Assembly: GCF_000317675.1 (NCBI RefSeq) | Contig: NC_019776.1 | Location: 2,604,001-2,668,000 of the forward strand | DNA: 64,000 nt | DNA from: Cyanobacterium aponinum PCC 10605 | Lineage (GTDB): Bacteria > Cyanobacteriota > Cyanobacteriia > Cyanobacteriales > Cyanobacteriaceae | Direction of reading: 5' to 3' | Shown: piece by piece, positions 31,247 through 41,395 of the stretch | Numbering within the stretch: position 1 is the first letter of the stretch | Layout of the letters: every line of letters begins with the position of its first letter | The notes under the pieces: model-generated | Seen by the model: only the letters and a program-made list of their open reading frames with translations | What the model was told of the DNA's origin: nothing | Database searches by the model: none | Translations under genes and position numbers: made by a program

Positions 31247-32290
31247 CTACATCAAATTTGGGAAGTTATGAGTATTCGGTGCATTCATAGCTTCAAAGCC
31301 TAAATTGGCACGGTTAATCATATCTGCATCGGTAGGAATCACATGATTGTTACTATCTAAAATAGAATGGTTAAAGTTGAATCCATTAAGGTTAAAGGCA
31401 ACGCTACTGATACCTAAACTCGCAAACCAAATGCCAATAGTGGGAAAAATCGCTAAGAGGAAATGAACAGAACGACTATTATTAAAAGCAAGAGAGGGAA
31501 TTAATAATCGTCCTAAATAACCCACATGACCAGCTATTAGATTATAAGTCATTTCCTGTTGACCAAATTGATAACCTTCATTCTGAGATATATCTTCTGT
31601 GGTTTCCCGAATTAAACTAGAGGTTACTAATGAGCCGTGCATGACGCTCAATAACGCACCACCTAAAACTCCTGCGACTCCTAACATATGGAATGGGTGC
31701 ATTAAAATATTATGCTCTGCTTGTAGCACAATCATGAAATTAAATGTCCCCACGATTCCTAAAGGCATCCCTTGAGAAAAACTACCTTGCCCAATGGGAT
31801 AAACTAACAATACCGAAGTTACGGCGGCCGCAGGGGCAGAAAATGCGATAGCAATCCAAGGGCGCATACCAAGACGCTCACTTAATTCCCAAAGTCTGCC
31901 TAAATAAGCCCAGACAGCGATTAAGAAGTGAAATATAATCATCTGGTAAGTACCACCATTATAAAGCCATTCATCGATCGAACCTGCTTCCCATAAAGGA
32001 TAAAAATGTAGCCCAATGGCGGCAGAAGTAGGCACAACGGCGGCGGTTGCAATATTATTACCGCTTAAAAGCGAACCCATGACGGGTTCACGAATACCAT
32101 CTACATCCACTCCCGGGGCGGCAACAAAGGCAATAATAAATGCGATCGCAGCGACGAAGGCAGTGGGAATCATTAACACACTAAACCATCCTAGATAGAT
32201 ACGGTTATTAGTGCTAGTAATCCATCGACAGAAACGATCCCAAAGAGAATCATAGTTTAAACTGGAACTATTTTGAGCTATGTTTGCCAT
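31247..32290 (-). CDS. psbA: Atypical photosystem II D1 protein (rogue/sentinel type)
   Basis: A 347-residue D1-family protein with clear PSII fold ([74 protein letters not shown]). Aligned by eye with standard D1 (offset +3, then +4 after an extra Val at residue 256), TyrZ (Y164), E192 (=E189), H193 (=H190), the P680 ligand H201 and iron ligands H218/H276 are kept. D170 is Q173, H332 is N336, E333 is A337, and the C-terminus ends HNFPNLM so D342 and A344 are absent. S264 reads A268, and Q/E130 is L133. It should not assemble a normal Mn4CaO5 cluster. Its ATG is preceded by AGGAG. Chlorophyll f synthase (ChlF) is an alternative. Confidence 0.9.
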
Positions 32291-32303
32291 AATTTAGAAC
32301 TCC

Positions 32304-32321
32304 TACAACTTTATCTTGTTG
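32304..32321 (-). promoter_or_regulatory. Short stem-loop in the psbA leader
   Basis: ACAAC and GTTGT flank an 8-nt loop a few bases upstream of the AGGAG ribosome binding site of the D1 gene. The stem is only 5 bp, so it is weak evidence for a leader structure. Confidence 0.25.
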
Positions 32322-32342
32322 TCTAATGAGTTATTTGACTTC

Positions 32343-32364
32343 TCCACGCATTGAAATACGTGGA
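32343..32364 (-). repeat. Right-end outer hairpin of the TnpB element
   Basis: TCCACG (32343-32348) pairs with CGTGGA (32359-32364); after a C/A mismatch two more pairs close a 4-nt loop. It lies just past the tnpB stop, where TnpB-associated omegaRNA scaffolds end and the guide segment begins; that placement is inferred. The D1 start codon is 52 bp further on. Confidence 0.65.
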
Positions 32365-32366
32365 TT

Positions 32367-33743
32367 CTAAGCGGATGTCGCTACACAGGTTAAAACCTGT
32401 TCGCTCCGCTTACGATATACTTTAGTTAACGAATTAACGTTATATCGCTTAGGAAGAGTCAATGCTTCCTTAGACACCTCGGCTAGGGTTATCCCTAGCT
32501 GTGTGCTTACCTTTTTTAAAATGTTGATAGCTCCGTTACAGTCCGCATTAATCAAGTAACTTTTAGCCGTTTTATACAAACCTCTATTTATTCTTTTCCC
32601 ACTAAACTTATACTCTCTGGGTTTTTCACCATATTTTGGTAATAAGTCATTATCGAGAAAAGATGACTTGCTTGTATAACTTTCTTCAGTCTCAGTGAAT
32701 CTTATACCCACTTCATCGGCTAATTCTTTTATACGGTTTTTTAACCTCACTGTTGGTAGTTGTACAAAGTTCTGGTTATTTCCCTTACCTAGATTAGCAT
32801 TACTCTTCACACCTTGCCCCCAACCAAATACGATGTCACCTATCCTATTATTAAGGCAGTAATTAATAATAAAACGAGCATATTTGTTAATACTATCTTT
32901 AACTTGACAATTTCTTTTATGGGTTATTTCATCTAAAAATTCATCCCAATAAAACTCTGATTTCCCATTTTTATATTGAGCTACAGTCTTATTATATTTT
33001 TGGTTGATGAACTTTAAACGTTTTCCACATAAAATAAATGACTTGCCTTTAGTACTAACCGCAGTTATTAAATTACTTACCCCCGTATCTATTCCTAGAG
33101 CTTGACTGTAATTTAATTCGGTTGCTTTTACTTCTGGTGTTTTATAAACAAACTCAGCCCATAACTTGCCTAATGACGGTACTATCCTGACTTCAGCAAT
33201 ATTATGGCTATTCACTCCTTTAGCACTAGGAATTATTAGCTCTTTTGTCACCAGTTCATCTTTTTGAGTTTTTGGGATAGGCAATCTACAATAACCATCA
33301 ATTGTTATTTTTATTTGTTGCTTGGTAAAAGACACTGCATATAAACCATTTTTTCTATAGCTAGGCATTTTAGGTTTATGTTCTATTTCCCCTTTAAACC
33401 ACAGTGATAATAATTGGTTATAGGCTTTAAATGCTTCCGCTACTGACTTAATAGTTTGTTGTCCTTGACTCCCACCTATCGCTTGATAATGAACATTTGT
33501 TTTTAACTCCTTACAAAGGTTAGGATAATTAGCCTTTACCTTTCTTAGCTTAAAAGATGAACGCAATAAATCATTTTTATCAAAATATATATTTCTAGGG
33601 CAATCTTCAAAATGAGATTGTCTAATCAGAAATACTGTAGAATTATACAACTTATTTGACTGTTCACAGGTAAACTGTAAATAGTCGTTGCATTCGTCAC
33701 TAATATTGTTTGTTAGTAAGATTCTGATAGTTTTATAATTCAT
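32367..33743 (-). CDS. tnpB: TnpB-family RNA-guided nuclease without zinc ribbon
   Basis: The 458-residue protein has a wedge/REC-like N-terminal half and a split RuvC domain. RuvC-I is ALGIDTGVSNLI (D219), RuvC-II is FTETEESYTSKSSF (E351/E353/E354 region), and RuvC-III is INADCNGAINILKK (D401), so the acidic triad looks intact. Between RuvC-II and -III the usual CxxC..CxxC zinc ribbon is absent; in its place is LDNDLLPKYGEKP followed by FSGKRINRGLY. This variant class exists among TnpB proteins. The 3' end overlaps a palindrome and lies next to the right-end hairpin, as expected for an omegaRNA. Transcription continues toward the D1 gene. Confidence 0.88.
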   Translation of the reverse strand: MNYKTIRILLTNNISDECNDYLQFTCEQSNKLYNSTVFLIRQSHFEDCPRNIYFDKNDLLRSSFKLRKVKANYPNLCKELKTNVHYQAIGGSQGQQTIKSVAEAFKAYNQLLSLWFKGEIEHKPKMPSYRKNGLYAVSFTKQQIKITIDGYCRLPIPKTQKDELVTKELIIPSAKGVNSHNIAEVRIVPSLGKLWAEFVYKTPEVKATELNYSQALGIDTGVSNLITAVSTKGKSFILCGKRLKFINQKYNKTVAQYKNGKSEFYWDEFLDEITHKRNCQVKDSINKYARFIINYCLNNRIGDIVFGWGQGVKSNANLGKGNNQNFVQLPTVRLKNRIKELADEVGIRFTETEESYTSKSSFLDNDLLPKYGEKPREYKFSGKRINRGLYKTAKSYLINADCNGAINILKKVSTQLGITLAEVSKEALTLPKRYNVNSLTKVYRKRSEQVLTCVATSA

Positions 33744-33777
33744 GCTATAATTTTAACATCGTTTAAAACATAAATCA

Positions 33778-33927
33778 ATGGTAAAAACAAAATTTCTTGG
33801 GGTAAAGTTATCAGAAAAAAGGTTTACAAAGTTGAAGGAGTATGCGTCATTAAAAGAGATGACAATGACTCAAGTAATTGAGCAGTACATAGACAGGATT
33901 AGTTTAGACAAAGCACAGGCAGATTAA
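33778..33927 (+). CDS. Small ribbon-helix-helix protein, divergent from tnpB
   Basis: A 49-residue gene starting ATGGTAAAAACAAAATTTC. The sequence VKTKFLGVKLSEKRFTKLKE then YASLKEMTMTQVIEQYIDRI has the beta-strand, helix, turn, helix pattern of RHH/CopG regulators. Its start is 34 bp from that of tnpB and faces away, so a shared control region lies between, and it may autoregulate tnpB and itself. Its stop codon lies within the inner palindrome of the left end. Similar small RHH genes are paired with TnpB in cyanobacterial elements; that is from memory. Confidence 0.7.
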   Translation: MVKTKFLGVKLSEKRFTKLKEYASLKEMTMTQVIEQYIDRISLDKAQAD

Positions 33928-33971
33928 AATCTGCAACGTTCGTTCTGCCACCCGTTGTTAAAACAGGTGGC
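33919..33971 (+). repeat. Left-end paired hairpins of the TnpB element
   Basis: The inner palindrome GCAGATTAAAATCTGC (33919-33934) is followed by an outer hairpin with stem GCCACC/GGTGGC, a C/A mismatch and three further pairs (33947-33971). It mirrors the arrangement at the right end. Confidence 0.7.
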
Positions 33972-34247
33972 TATTTCTCACTAACCTTTCTTGTATTTAT
34001 CACCTATCAACTCACAATCTTTCCTACATTATCTAACAGGACACAATACGCTTAATACAAGGAAATACACTATGTTTTGTAGAATGATTGCAAATATTTT
34101 GAGTAACTTTAAACGCCATTTTATAACTAAAAAGGAATATAGTCAATAAGTGTTTATTCTTAGAGGAGGTAGTTTACTTAAAAAGATAGAAGTCTTTTGA
34201 GATATTATGAATAGTAAAGAAATTATTAAATAGTCAAAAATTCGATC
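33972..34247. other. Gap between the TnpB element and the TPR-like gene
   Basis: Holds a possible 25-codon gene (34072-34149) and otherwise AT-rich DNA, with an AGAGGAGG stretch near 34163. Part of this may be the original upstream region of the D1 gene, now separated from it by the element; that is inference. Confidence 0.35.
34072..34149 (+). CDS. Possible 25-residue peptide
   Basis: The frame starts ATGTTTTGTAGAATGATTGC, preceded by AAGGA about 8 bp upstream, and encodes a basic amphipathic peptide (MFCRMIANILSNFKRHFITK and five more residues). No family was recognised; the ribosome binding site is the main support. Confidence 0.3.
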   Translation: MFCRMIANILSNFKRHFITKKEYSQ

Positions 34248-35030: not shown

Positions 35031-35645
35031 CTAAATGTCATCTCTTTCCGTGCGAATCCATTGATTTTCTCGCTTAAATAAAAATTTAAAATAAAGAGGT
35101 ATTTTCCAAAGTATATATAAAGGAATTTTCATTAGTGTTGTTAAGGTTAATTCTTCCCGTGCAAATTTCACCCACGCAATAAATATCCCGAAAAATATCA
35201 GTAAAGATGCGATCGCATTTTGTTCAACATTACAATCTGCATCTATAAAAATAACTACATCTGGGGGATTTTCTCTCAAATAGTTAACCCCAAAATCCAA
35301 AGCATAACCCTTGCCTTTTAATAAATCATTTTGACGCTCAATAATTTTTACCCCCATATTTTCTACCACTGCCACAGTACAATCTGTACAATTGTCTGCG
35401 ATTACAATGATATTGTCTGTTGATTTTAATTGGGGAATAATCGTTTTTAAAGTTTGAGAAATCACTCTTTCTTCATTATGAGCAGGAATTAAAACGCTAA
35501 CAGATGTATGTAACCATTTATCATTAAAATTCTCGTCTTTTTTTATGTTTAAAGCAGAAGCCAGACATTCACCCATTAAAGTTACTGCTAAACAGAAGTG
35601 AATAAAACTAAGCAGAAAAAGCAATACGGAAAGAATAGTTAACAT
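35031..35645 (-). pseudogene. GT2 glycosyltransferase with internal deletion
   Basis: The 204-residue frame begins as a family 2 glycosyltransferase: N-terminal membrane helix, SVSVLIPAHNEERVISQTLK, IIVIADNCTDCTVAV, KGKGYALDFG and the Asp-x-Asp metal site FIDADC. Directly after that (EQNAIASLL) it jumps to a C-terminal membrane segment LIFFGIFIAWVKF; the central acceptor-binding half with the QxxRW region is missing. The junction lies at a HIP1 site (GCGATCGCA near 35210). Full-length relatives are about 400 residues, so an in-frame deletion is likely. It may be non-functional. Confidence 0.65.
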
Positions 35646-38726: not shown

Positions 38727-39389
38727 TCAAAAAAGCCCTCGATAACGTACAAATAAGAGAATAGCCGCCCATGAACCTAAAGCAACTTTTAAAGCTACAA
38801 TAATATTTAAAAGAGGGATCGAGCCTCCACTAATAAGATAACCTAAGTTACCATGAGGTAATTCTATACCAGTTAAAGTTGCGATCGCAAGAATAATAAA
38901 TAATAAAACAGATACTTTTTCTAAGGTTGCGGCAGAAAATCGTTTATAAACTTTCTCCATCGTTTGAGATGAAGATGTAATCGCTATTAAGCCAATAGCT
39001 GTGCCTCCTGCCACTCCTGCGGCGAATCCGCCCCCCGGACTTAAATGACCTCTTATCGCTAATTCCGTGGTGACAAGGGCGGTTATAGTCGCCCCTAATC
39101 TAGCTAAAACGATAGATGGTTGATCTGTAAATTGATAAACTACAGTAGTGGGCTGTTCATTAGACAGCAAAAACCCGACTCCTAAAATAGCAATAGTAAA
39201 TACAATCACTTCAAAAATGGTGTCGTAAAGACGGTTGCGAAATATAATTCCTGATACAGCATTAGGTACACCTGTATCTTCAACAACCATTTCAACAATG
39301 GACATTTCCGACAATTCCGCCATGGTATTGGGCATAACTAAGATTTTTATAAACATTGCCAAACTAGCAATTATGTATAGTATTTTCAT
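38727..39389 (-). CDS. mnhB: Mrp/Mnh Na+/H+ antiporter subunit B
   Basis: The 220-residue membrane protein combines an N-terminal part related to MbhE (AVSGIIFRNRLYDTIFEVIV, FTIAILGVG) with the MnhB domain (about 85-220: ELAIRGHLSPGGGFAAGVAGGTAIGL, GNLGYLISGGSIPLLNIIVALK). It belongs to a multi-subunit cation/proton antiporter of the cytoplasmic membrane related to NADH dehydrogenase. It lies 35 bp after the DUF4040 subunit gene. Confidence 0.85.
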   Translation of the reverse strand: MKILYIIASLAMFIKILVMPNTMAELSEMSIVEMVVEDTGVPNAVSGIIFRNRLYDTIFEVIVFTIAILGVGFLLSNEQPTTVVYQFTDQPSIVLARLGATITALVTTELAIRGHLSPGGGFAAGVAGGTAIGLIAITSSSQTMEKVYKRFSAATLEKVSVLLFIILAIATLTGIELPHGNLGYLISGGSIPLLNIIVALKVALGSWAAILLFVRYRGLF

Positions 39390-39424
39390 GGTTTTTACCC
39401 TTGCTTAAATAGTTTTAATAAATA

Positions 39425-40009
39425 TTAATTAGCGTTATTTTTTACGTATTCTAAATATTGATCTTGGTTTTCTTTTATATCCATTTGATAGCCAATTAGT
39501 AATTGCTCTGATTTTATTCCCTGTTGAAGAATATCAAATAGTCTTTTTGTGCGTATATTTAGCAAATATTTTTTATCTAATTGATTACTTGTTAAAATAT
39601 AACCATGAATTTTCTTATCATTAAAAGAATTTTTTAATAGTTCCTGCTCAGAATAATAAACTAATTCTAATCGTAAATAAAAATTATTAATAACTTGTTT
39701 AATTTGATTTTTTATATTGTCAAAATTAGGGTCTTTTTCTGTATTTTTTTTATCCTCCTGAATTACTCCTAAACGCATCACAAAAGATGATCTAACAGCA
39801 ATAATATATAAAGCAACCCCTAACATTGTTCCCATTAAACCTTCTGTTAAAGCTACATCTGCCGCCCCTAAAATGATATAGCTCAAAACTGCGATCGCAC
39901 CTAAAATTCCTCTAATTACTAAGGCTTGATAAGGATTAACTTGAATCATTAACATTAATGCAGAAATGGGCAGTAAAGCCATAATCAAATAAATATATAA
40001 ATTATCCAT
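39425..40009 (-). CDS. Antiporter subunit with DUF4040 (MbhD-like) domain
   Basis: The 194 residues have membrane helices up to about residue 80 with the MbhD/DUF4040 pattern ILGAADVALTEGLMGTMLGVALYIIAVRSSF, corresponding to the C-terminal part of MrpA. A long hydrophilic tail (about 85-194) follows; it is more variable and may be a cytoplasmic domain. It overlaps the mnhG gene by 8 bp, indicating translational coupling. Confidence 0.8.
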   Translation of the reverse strand: MDNLYIYLIMALLPISALMLMIQVNPYQALVIRGILGAIAVLSYIILGAADVALTEGLMGTMLGVALYIIAVRSSFVMRLGVIQEDKKNTEKDPNFDNIKNQIKQVINNFYLRLELVYYSEQELLKNSFNDKKIHGYILTSNQLDKKYLLNIRTKRLFDILQQGIKSEQLLIGYQMDIKENQDQYLEYVKNNAN

Positions 40010-40286
40010 TTAACTTTTTCCCCTCTTGATTTCGACTACAATAAGCTAAGACATAACCGAGCATTGTGTTCCATAAAGTTAAAGAAATTATTGCTAAAAT
40101 TAATAATGGTAATTCGCTAGGAATTTTCAAAGCTAAGGCAAAAACAATTAAAATTGAACCTAAAGTGTCAGCTACAGATAAACTATGTAATTTATACAAA
40201 ACGGAACGTTTATCTAATATTTGAATTGTTCCCCATAACCAAAAAACTAAACCAATTACCATAAAAAAATACGTAAGAAAGTCCAT
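40002..40286 (-). CDS. mnhG: Mrp/Mnh antiporter subunit G
   Basis: A 94-residue three-helix protein of the MnhG/PhaG type: FMVIGLVFWLWGTIQIL, LYKLHSLSVADTLGSILIV, LLILAIISLTLWNTMLGYVLA. The KLHSLSVADTLGS stretch is typical. It overlaps the next gene by 8 bp and is separated from mnhF by a 440-bp repeat-containing gap. Confidence 0.85.
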   Translation of the reverse strand: MDFLTYFFMVIGLVFWLWGTIQILDKRSVLYKLHSLSVADTLGSILIVFALALKIPSELPLLILAIISLTLWNTMLGYVLAYCSRNQEGKKLNG

Positions 40287-40725
40287 ACTTTATTAATAAT
40301 TATACAGATTTTAAATATAGTTTAAATGAATTAAGTAAAAATGAAAAATAGAAATAATTGATTGAAAGAATCAGAAAATTAAATTACCCAGATATATACA
40401 AAGATTAAAATAATTTACAATAAATTAATTGAAGATAAAAGAATAAAAATAATTAGTTAATGCAAATTTAATATTAAACATAAATGATTTAGTTAGCCTC
40501 TTCAATGTTAGTTAATAGATTTTATTTTTTGGCTCTTTTACAGTTGCTATGGTAAATTAACAAAAAATAATTGCTATAAGCTATGTAAATTAAGAGATTA
40601 ACGATAACAAAAAATTAATTGTTATAAATTAATATTTATTATTTAACCTGACACCTGCCACCTGCCGCCTGACACCTTTTCCTAACCAATAATTTATATA
40701 CTCACAGTAAGAGAGCCTATTTTTT
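40287..40725. other. Gap within the antiporter cluster
   Basis: 439 bp between mnhF and mnhG, which normally adjoin. It contains AT-rich DNA, a degenerate heptamer array (about 40646-40678, CCTGACA/CCTGCCA/CCTGCCG units) and an inverted RF-2 repeat (to about 40721). No gene was found, so a repeat insertion may have split the operon. Confidence 0.5.
40646..40721 (-). repeat. Heptamer array plus RF-2 repeat, inverted copy
   Basis: The minus strand reads AGGCTCTCTTACTGTGAGTA, then TATAAATTATTGGTTAGG, followed by GTGTCAGGCGGCAGG heptamers. This matches the RF-2 copies at 20871 and 63763. Confidence 0.6.
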
Positions 40726-40974
40726 TTATAATTTCAAACGTTTTAAAAGATGAGCTAATAACATTAAACCAGCATTACCTATAGTTAAAATAAGAACGCC
40801 AACAACTCCCATCATCCAATCATCTTTAAACACAGAAATAGCTAAAATCATGATAGATGCTTTAGTGGAAATGCTACTAACCGCTAACATTCTTTGCCAT
40901 ATATCCTCATTTTGCCATGCTTGATAAATGGGTATTAATAGGATTAAAAACATCGAAATAATAACAATATTCAT
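40726..40974 (-). CDS. mnhF: Mrp/Mnh antiporter subunit F
   Basis: The 82-residue protein has three membrane helices (about 3-15, 30-48, 55-74) and the MnhF/MrpF-like pattern RMLAVSSISTKASIMILAIS. It is encoded 31 bp after mnhE. The fit to family is moderate in sequence but supported by gene order. Confidence 0.8.
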   Translation of the reverse strand: MNIVIISMFLILLIPIYQAWQNEDIWQRMLAVSSISTKASIMILAISVFKDDWMMGVVGVLILTIGNAGLMLLAHLLKRLKL

Positions 40975-41005
40975 CTCTTAAATAAAATAATAAATTGAGT
41001 AAATA

Positions 41006-41395
41006 TTAATCGGTCAATAATTGTTTTCTGTCAATTCTGTGAACTTCGTACCATCCTTCTTTGTGATATTTGACAACAACAGTTTTGGGCGTAAAAGTAA
41101 TAAAAAATATGTCCAAAAAAATTAGTAAAGGCGATCGCCCCGCAGGTACTTTTTCCATATTTAATCCCTCATAACGATGGGGAAAAAGCATAATTTCCAG
41201 AGCTTCCCAGTAGGCTTGAGGAAAAACGATCAACATTTTCGCTAATATCTTTAACCATTCTTTTATATCTGCTAAACCAATTCTCGGCTTTGGTAAGATA
41301 AATGCGATCGCAACTCCAATCATAATATTTGCCGGACTCAAATCAGAAGTCAGTAAAAACCATATTCCTAGCCGAAATATAAGATGCAGTATCAT
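41006..41395 (-). CDS. mnhE: Mrp/Mnh antiporter subunit E
   Basis: The 129-residue protein has N-terminal hydrophobic segments (FRLGIWFLLTSDLSPANIMIGV) and a cytoplasmic-facing C-terminal part with FPQAYWEALEIMLFPHRYEG and FITFTPKTVVVKYHKEGWYEVHRID, matching MnhE with its conserved TP-T-V pattern. It is the first gene of the cluster, preceded by a 223-bp gap divergent from the Crp-family gene. Confidence 0.85.
   Translation of the reverse strand: MILHLIFRLGIWFLLTSDLSPANIMIGVAIAFILPKPRIGLADIKEWLKILAKMLIVFPQAYWEALEIMLFPHRYEGLNMEKVPAGRSPLLIFLDIFFITFTPKTVVVKYHKEGWYEVHRIDRKQLLTD

Follow-up and report, generated by a model that had tools for sequence, protein, structure and literature searches.

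Introduction

Several groups of D1 protein have been described that differ at the Mn4CaO5 site of photosystem II (PSII). In PMC4773611, seven D1 positions are given as ligands of this cluster; the microaerobic D1' (Group 3) is reported to carry all of the Mn ligands, and in the atypical D1 of Gloeobacter kilaueensis (Group 0) E189 alone is reported to be kept among them. The Group 0 protein is also reported to be devoid of the iron ligands (PMC4390838). Group 1, the ChlF or super-rogue D1, is recognized by a Q127-D128 motif together with Q252, criteria found in PMC10535343. Group 2 comprises PsbA4 of Cyanothece ATCC 51142 and its relatives. According to PMC9640542, psbA4 of Cyanothece 51142 is expressed mainly in the dark and its product is without the LDLA processing motif; deletion of the gene had modest effects, in that growth without combined nitrogen was slightly favoured, the PSII titre changed a little and charge recombination became faster.

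The window analysed here, 64,000 nucleotides of Cyanobacterium aponinum PCC 10605 (NC_019776.1, positions 2,604,001 to 2,668,000), carries a rogue psbA gene. The host genome parts rogue D1 from its usual explanation, nitrogen fixation at night: the gene is intact, nifD is absent and a close relative has both. The comparisons below suggest, with a probability that we put at roughly 0.6, that the protein would serve a PSII with charge separation and without water splitting or normal QB exchange, that is, a closed centre, and that it would not act as a nitrogenase shield here.

The rogue psbA gene and its manganese site

The rogue psbA gene (a Group 2 D1) occupies positions 31247..32290 on the minus strand and encodes 347 amino acids in an intact frame with an ATG start and a TAG stop. 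The preliminary description had given these coordinates exactly and had left the strand unstated. D1 numbers were set by alignment with a structurally characterized D1 chain and the standard D1 of the host, and equal the residue number minus 3 through position 252 and minus 4 beyond. The alignment bears out the residues first read by eye: Y161, H190, E189, H118, H198, H215 and H272 are kept, and D170Q, H332N, E333A, S264A and L130 are changed. H337 is likewise retained. The chain had also been said to stop before both D342 and A344, which is correct for residue 344 and incorrect for 342; the C-terminus reads N338 F P N341 L342 M343 stop, with Leu342 present and the chain ending at 343. Five of the seven Mn4CaO5 ligand positions are lost (170, 332, 333, 342, 344) and two are kept (189, 337), so that the protein is without the full set of seven that marks standard D1 (Groups 3 and 4). 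Its score against the NCBIfam psbA equivalog, 575.9 bits, falls below the cut-off of 596.05. An AlphaFold model had a mean pLDDT of 41.7 (19-row alignment) and was not used. To judge by the published descriptions, the Group 0 D1 is alike in keeping E189, but the window D1 keeps H337 as well, and it is set apart from Group 0 by the retention of H215 and H272.

Sequencing error at the unusual residues was considered and rejected. The unusual residues and an identical end recur in the congener genome G001, whose rogue D1 is 99% identical, and Q170 together with the short end was also found in three more genomes from the family. A pseudogene was rejected as well: the changes are common to the congener and three other genomes, and comparison with the G001 orthologue gives a dN/dS of 0.018 (42 synonymous and 3 amino-acid changes). 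These values indicate strong constraint on the rogue D1 since the host and G001 split. All 3 amino-acid changes fall on the branch of the host strain, as judged by L009, and are too few to tell whether the constraint has eased since the insertion of the TnpB element described below. The window gene is a real, intact rogue/sentinel D1, of a class already known.

Two probably broken psbA copies were seen in other genomes. At G001:C1:3459607-3460278 (L210), psbA is matched in part and interrupted by an in-frame stop, probably a broken D1 copy; at G026:C4:1172-2028 (L212), on a small contig, the partial psbA matches contain several stops and are probably a pseudogene.

Assignment to the rogue D1 class

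D1 sequences were drawn from 60 genomes of relatives, from the contigs of named genomes (the best 79 loci listed) and from 388 genomes of the class. In the last search, with five candidates scored per genome, at least 46 rogue matches were found in at least 44 genomes; they stand above a small score gap (657.9 versus 656.0 bits) and all 46 listed carry the rogue residues. ChlF sequences were drawn by a motif pattern that matches 70 of the 388 genomes, many by chance; 20 stretches were chosen, of which 16 hold a ChlF-like D1, one of these partial. The resulting residue table contains 66 distinct rogue, 85 standard and 15–16 ChlF sequences. The groups were named by residues before the tree tests, and their names depend in part on positions 252, 261 and 342.

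In the trees the window protein clusters with the other 65 rogue D1s and separately from both standard D1 and ChlF; in particular, it does not fall with standard D1, the placement that the preliminary description had asked to be checked. The rogue group receives a support of 0.961 in a FastTree without D2 (111 rows) and 99/98 under LG+C20 with 45 sampled rows, among them 21 of the 66 rogue D1s. Its lowest support, an ultrafast bootstrap of 59, comes from a D2-rooted LG+F+R4 tree of 112 rows, in which rogue D1 and ChlF join with a support of 94, a five-member sub-clade containing the window protein has 100 and the standard D1s do not form a single clade. A clade with the D1s of the host itself is rejected by AU tests (p = 5e-7), as is one with the microaerobic-like copies (p = 0.003), and the protein is accordingly no decayed duplicate of a host D1. 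Trees in which the sub-clade shares one side of a branch with standard D1 (p = 0.37) or ChlF (p = 0.29) are not rejected. The mean identity of the window D1 is 70% to rogue, 69% to standard and 56% to ChlF sequences. Because overall identity does not discriminate between rogue and standard D1, the class was assigned by shared residues and trees; on these it is well supported, as the preliminary description had proposed, and the branching order near the base of the class is not.

The protein resembles Group 2 in its missing Mn ligands, its retained YZ and H190 and the lack of an LDLA motif, and the genome has normal psbA genes alongside it. With the Group 2 rogue D1s gathered here, on which the likeness to PsbA4 was judged rather than on the Cyanothece protein by name, it also shares an extra residue after H252, P261 and P334. 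Unlike most of these, it combines Gln170 with an end at 343, in a host without nifD and with an element in the leader of the gene. The window D1 has in common with the microaerobic D1' the residues L158, A286 and A80, which we take to be Group 3 marks and which are frequent among rogue D1s too. In the host these marks, all of the ligands and S264 are borne by a separate gene (L003).

Chlorophyll f synthase had been left as an option in the preliminary description, and ChlF is indeed a D1 paralogue that keeps P680 and the YZ/H190 pair and not the Mn site, has a diverged stromal loop and is sister to rogue D1 in the D2-rooted tree; the AU test, moreover, leaves its union with the sub-clade standing. 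The window D1, in contrast, has L127-G128 for Q127-D128 and H252 for Q252, and is without the change at N298, a residue that it keeps. Its mean identity to ChlF is 56%, no YQDxEW pattern was found in the host genome, and the six reaction-centre matches there are four D1 and two D2. The missing Q127-D128 motif and Q252 exclude the enzyme for practical purposes.

A sub-clade with Gln170 and a short C-terminus

Of 15 genomes searched in the host's family, 14 gave a D1 match and five carry a rogue D1; these five rogue D1s form a clade with a support of 100. Gln170 occurs in 5 of the 66 rogue D1s, all of them members of this sub-clade; for Group 2, residue 170 is given as E or D in PMC4773611. The chain ends at 343 in six of the 66, the five members and L208. 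An end at this position leaves no extension to cut off, and processing by the C-terminal peptidase would be unnecessary in the sub-clade. The literature covered, which is short of the primary papers of the class, did not bring up the Gln170/short-tail sub-clade or a quantified, family-wide remodelling of the QB loop, nor a nitrogenase-less genome beside a nif-bearing sister or the leader insertion.

Other departures were seen among the rogue D1s. Seven of them (L056, L150, L151, L154, L194, L202 and L204) have Lys or Arg at 189 together with Arg332, which puts positive charges in the Mn site, and share with the sub-clade of the window a 12-row branch (support 100, D2-rooted tree). The P680 ligand His198 is replaced by Ser or Gln in 7/66.

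Remodelling of the QB loop

The preliminary description considered the loss of the QB serine unusual, which proved wrong for the class. Position 264 is Ala or Gly in 56 of the 66 distinct rogue D1s (36 Ala, 20 Gly, 10 Ser) and in 41 of the 45 that remain after clustering at 90% (24 Ala, 17 Gly, 4 Ser). A one-residue insertion between H252 and G253 occurs in 66/66 rogue, 0/85 standard and 0/15 ChlF sequences, and P261 in 64/66, 0/85 and 1/16, respectively, although P261 also helped to name the group. The window D1 has both features, and we know of no published use of the pair as a group criterion. E244 is kept in only 4 of the 66 rogue D1s, and the acidic residue at 244 is lost in the window D1.

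Losses were then counted over the 203 positions treated as invariant in standard D1 (one residue shared by at least 84 of the 85 sequences), a position being scored as lost when kept in less than 20% of a group. Rogue D1s have lost 13 of the 27 such positions within 242–271, versus 11 of the 176 outside this stretch (p = 2e-7). A concentration of the same kind, though weaker, is seen in ChlF, 13/27 versus 23/176 (p = 8e-5), and the loop change is thus not specific to rogue D1. On the Mn side, the stretch 328–340 has lost 3/10 versus 21/193 in the remainder (p = 0.10), no significant concentration. Residues Y161, Q165, H190, H118, H215 and N298 are unchanged in 66/66 rogue D1s, as are altogether 74 of the 203 invariant positions. 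The literature search, short of the primary papers, met no paper on remodelling of the QB loop in rogue D1.

As the simplest reading of these residues, we infer a centre that would separate charge and oxidise Tyr161 without an Mn cluster or a normal QB site. The rebuilt loop predicts a closed acceptor side, and makes the two ends of the electron path of interest rather than the Mn side alone.

The same data bear on a different proposal, that rogue D1 is the core of a light-driven enzyme akin to ChlF, in which P680+ and Tyr161 oxidise a pigment, a lipid or a metal and the closed QB site retains the electrons. Y161, H190 and Q165 are kept without exception in the 66 rogue and the 15 scored ChlF sequences, both of which have shed Mn ligands; both have also lost E244 and much of the loop 242–271, and the two group against standard D1 with a support of 94 in the D2-rooted tree. 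That grouping could, however, be due to long-branch attraction, neither a substrate nor a product or pathway neighbour can be named, and the gene order is kept in 0 of 17 flanking stretches besides that of G001. We regard such an enzyme as unlikely. Its wider form, in which rogue D1s at large are acceptor-closed photochemical enzymes and not placeholders, and the sub-clade has a version that works without nitrogenase and without processing, is doubtful to the same degree. If it were true, the oxidising half (P680 and the Tyr161-His190 pair) would be strongly selected, and the QB pocket rebuilt so that electrons stay. The universal retention of Tyr161 and His190 does exceed what a mere placeholder needs, a point against the closed PSII preferred below.

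Photosystem genes of the host and a proposed closed centre

In the host genome (4.18 Mb, 99.99% complete), the type II reaction-centre family (PF00124) is matched six times, by four D1 and two near-identical D2 genes. Two of the D1 genes are standard and encode the same protein, which answers the earlier suggestion to look for standard psbA copies elsewhere; the others are the rogue gene and the microaerobic-like L003, whose L158 and A286 changes we assume to be marks of microaerobic D1. The CP47/CP43 family (PF00421) has three loci in the whole genome, which from score and position are presumably psbB, psbC (adjoining one psbD) and an IsiA-like gene. Neither a specialised D2, CP43 or CP47 partner nor a second, far-red-type set of D1, D2, CP43 and CP47 genes is found among the PF00124 and PF00421 matches of the host. 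The far-red cluster that the preliminary description proposed to look for did not appear in the form of further variant PSII genes in these D1, D2 and CP47/CP43 families.

The reading that we prefer, a closed PSII, would work as follows. The rogue D1 keeps the residues for the P680 chlorophylls, the non-haem iron and the Tyr161-His190 pair, and probably joins the ordinary D2, CP43 and CP47 in a PSII complex; ordinary partners are proposed because the two families searched show no specialised one. The centre would separate charge from P680 to QA, would not oxidise water and would exchange QB poorly or not at all, to judge from the residues present. A closed, non-oxygen-evolving PSII of this kind may be suited to darkness or low oxygen. 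The benefit of such a centre is unproven, given that the effects of psbA4 deletion were modest in PMC9640542.

Rogue D1 without nitrogenase

The best match to nifD in the host genome (G000) scores 54 bits against a cut-off of 654, and is taken for a chlorophyll-synthesis relative of nitrogenase; nifD is absent. The congener G001 has nifD at 854 bits together with the 99%-identical rogue D1, and is the only one of the five rogue-D1 genomes of the family to have it. Over the 388 genomes of the class, nifD (E <= 1e-150) occurs in 28 of the 44 listed rogue-D1 genomes versus 96 of the 344 others, an odds ratio of 4.5 (Fisher p = 5e-6, in a test that ignores shared ancestry). The relation is an association in counts and not a rule, nifD being lacking in 16 of the 44 rogue-D1 genomes among the matches listed.

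These counts and the joint presence in G001 are what speaks for a sentinel that takes the place of normal D1 during the night and protects nitrogenase, as proposed for Cyanothece and as the mention of dark nitrogen-fixing cells in the preliminary description implied. That role does not fit the host genome, where the 54-bit match stands against 654, nor the 4/5 family and 16/44 listed class genomes that lack nifD. As a present function in this strain it is refuted unless a nitrogenase lies outside the assembly, and we consider it highly improbable. Within the mechanism of a closed PSII, nitrogenase shielding is likewise a very unlikely job here because no nifD was found. A rogue D1 in a nif-less genome is not new in kind, since PMC9640542 reports rogue D1 in non-diazotrophic strains.

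In the nif region, compared by matches over 300 bp, synteny between G000 and G001 is lost at 3740654 and, over the 80 kb compared, is not regained except for a 431-bp match at 75%. Either a gain of nif in G001 or a loss in G000 would fit. A search for NiFe hydrogenase (PF00374, E 1e-20) gave no match in G000, nor in a Synechococcus elongatus control; the latter presumably has HoxH, and the search probably misses that protein.

A TnpB element in the psbA leader

The leader of the rogue psbA gene is interrupted by an IS200/IS605-type TnpB element of 1657 bp (32335..33991, minus strand) that is absent at the same place in G001, where the site is empty and the flanks are 96–98% identical. Only 44 bp of native leader (32291-32334) are left between the element and the start codon. 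The element carries a tnpB-like gene (OrfB_IS605; 32367..33743, minus strand) that runs in the direction of psbA, with 76 bp from its stop codon to the psbA start, and, near its psbA-proximal end, a hairpin of nine pairs, one of them G-U (32344..32363, minus strand). The TnpB protein scores 48.7 bits against Pfam OrfB_IS605, above the cut-off, and 24.5 bits against the Cas12f1-like TNB, below it. The OrfB_IS605 protein, the hairpin near one end and the empty site in a relative together place the element among the IS200/IS605 TnpB elements. It has nine matches in the host genome, eight partial and one full-length, with 40 of 62 first-look candidates scored.

On the psbA side of the element lies TAGGAG (32300..32305, minus strand), which by eye resembles a ribosome-binding site and is identical in G001. 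The promoter-like TTGACT-17-TAAAAT (34118..34146, minus strand), a consensus match only, is common to host and congener. Its distance to the rogue psbA start is ~170 bp in the congener and, because of the insertion, ~1.83 kb in the host. Three promoter-like matches within the element face psbA (from 33018, 32678 and 32393; consensus only), in an AT-rich region where 14 such matches over both strands compare with 8.1 expected, again by consensus alone. The 270 nt just upstream of the psbA start fold better than 200/200 shuffles (z = -5.6). Judged from the sequence, the insertion could either silence psbA or put it under read-through from tnpB. In the mechanism of a closed PSII, the insertion has probably weakened or re-wired psbA expression, and as a counterpoint it may have silenced the gene. 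In either case the leader insertion is a natural experiment on the need for the gene.

Silencing would be expected if the gene were a relic on its way out, in a strain without nitrogenase, its native promoter cut off and its protein no longer made. Such a course agrees with the position of the element, 44 bp ahead of the psbA start and missing from G001, with the presence of nifD in G001 and its absence in G000, and with the 3/3 amino-acid differences from G001 that fall on the host's branch. Yet the frame is intact at a dN/dS of 0.018, three changes out of three do not suffice to demonstrate relaxed selection, the ribosome-binding-like motif survives, and expression could come from tnpB read-through or from the three promoter-like matches that face psbA. 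Three other nif-less genomes of the family have an intact rogue D1, with no related TnpB in the flanks compared. A relic is possible, though we would not expect it.

If the host TnpB works like known TnpBs, its guide RNA would end in the psbA leader (32291-32334), and RNA processing by such a TnpB could cut just upstream of rogue psbA. Many TnpBs have an acidic catalytic residue where the host protein reads FGWGQG, and its activity is doubtful.

Neighbouring genes

None of the 17 flanking stretches other than that of G001, each compared with the window only, keeps the gene order of the window. Single paralogues were matched in some, for example a 59%-identical TnpB that in L128 lies ~5 kb away from rogue psbA. 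In the window itself, a short glycosyltransferase-like gene at 35034-35645 encodes 204 aa in the host; the congener match at L124:8334-8540 has a 62-aa piece in one frame (95% identical), and the gene looks broken there. A run of small membrane-protein genes at 38727-41395 on the minus strand resembles, by eye, an Mrp-type multisubunit Na+/H+ antiporter.
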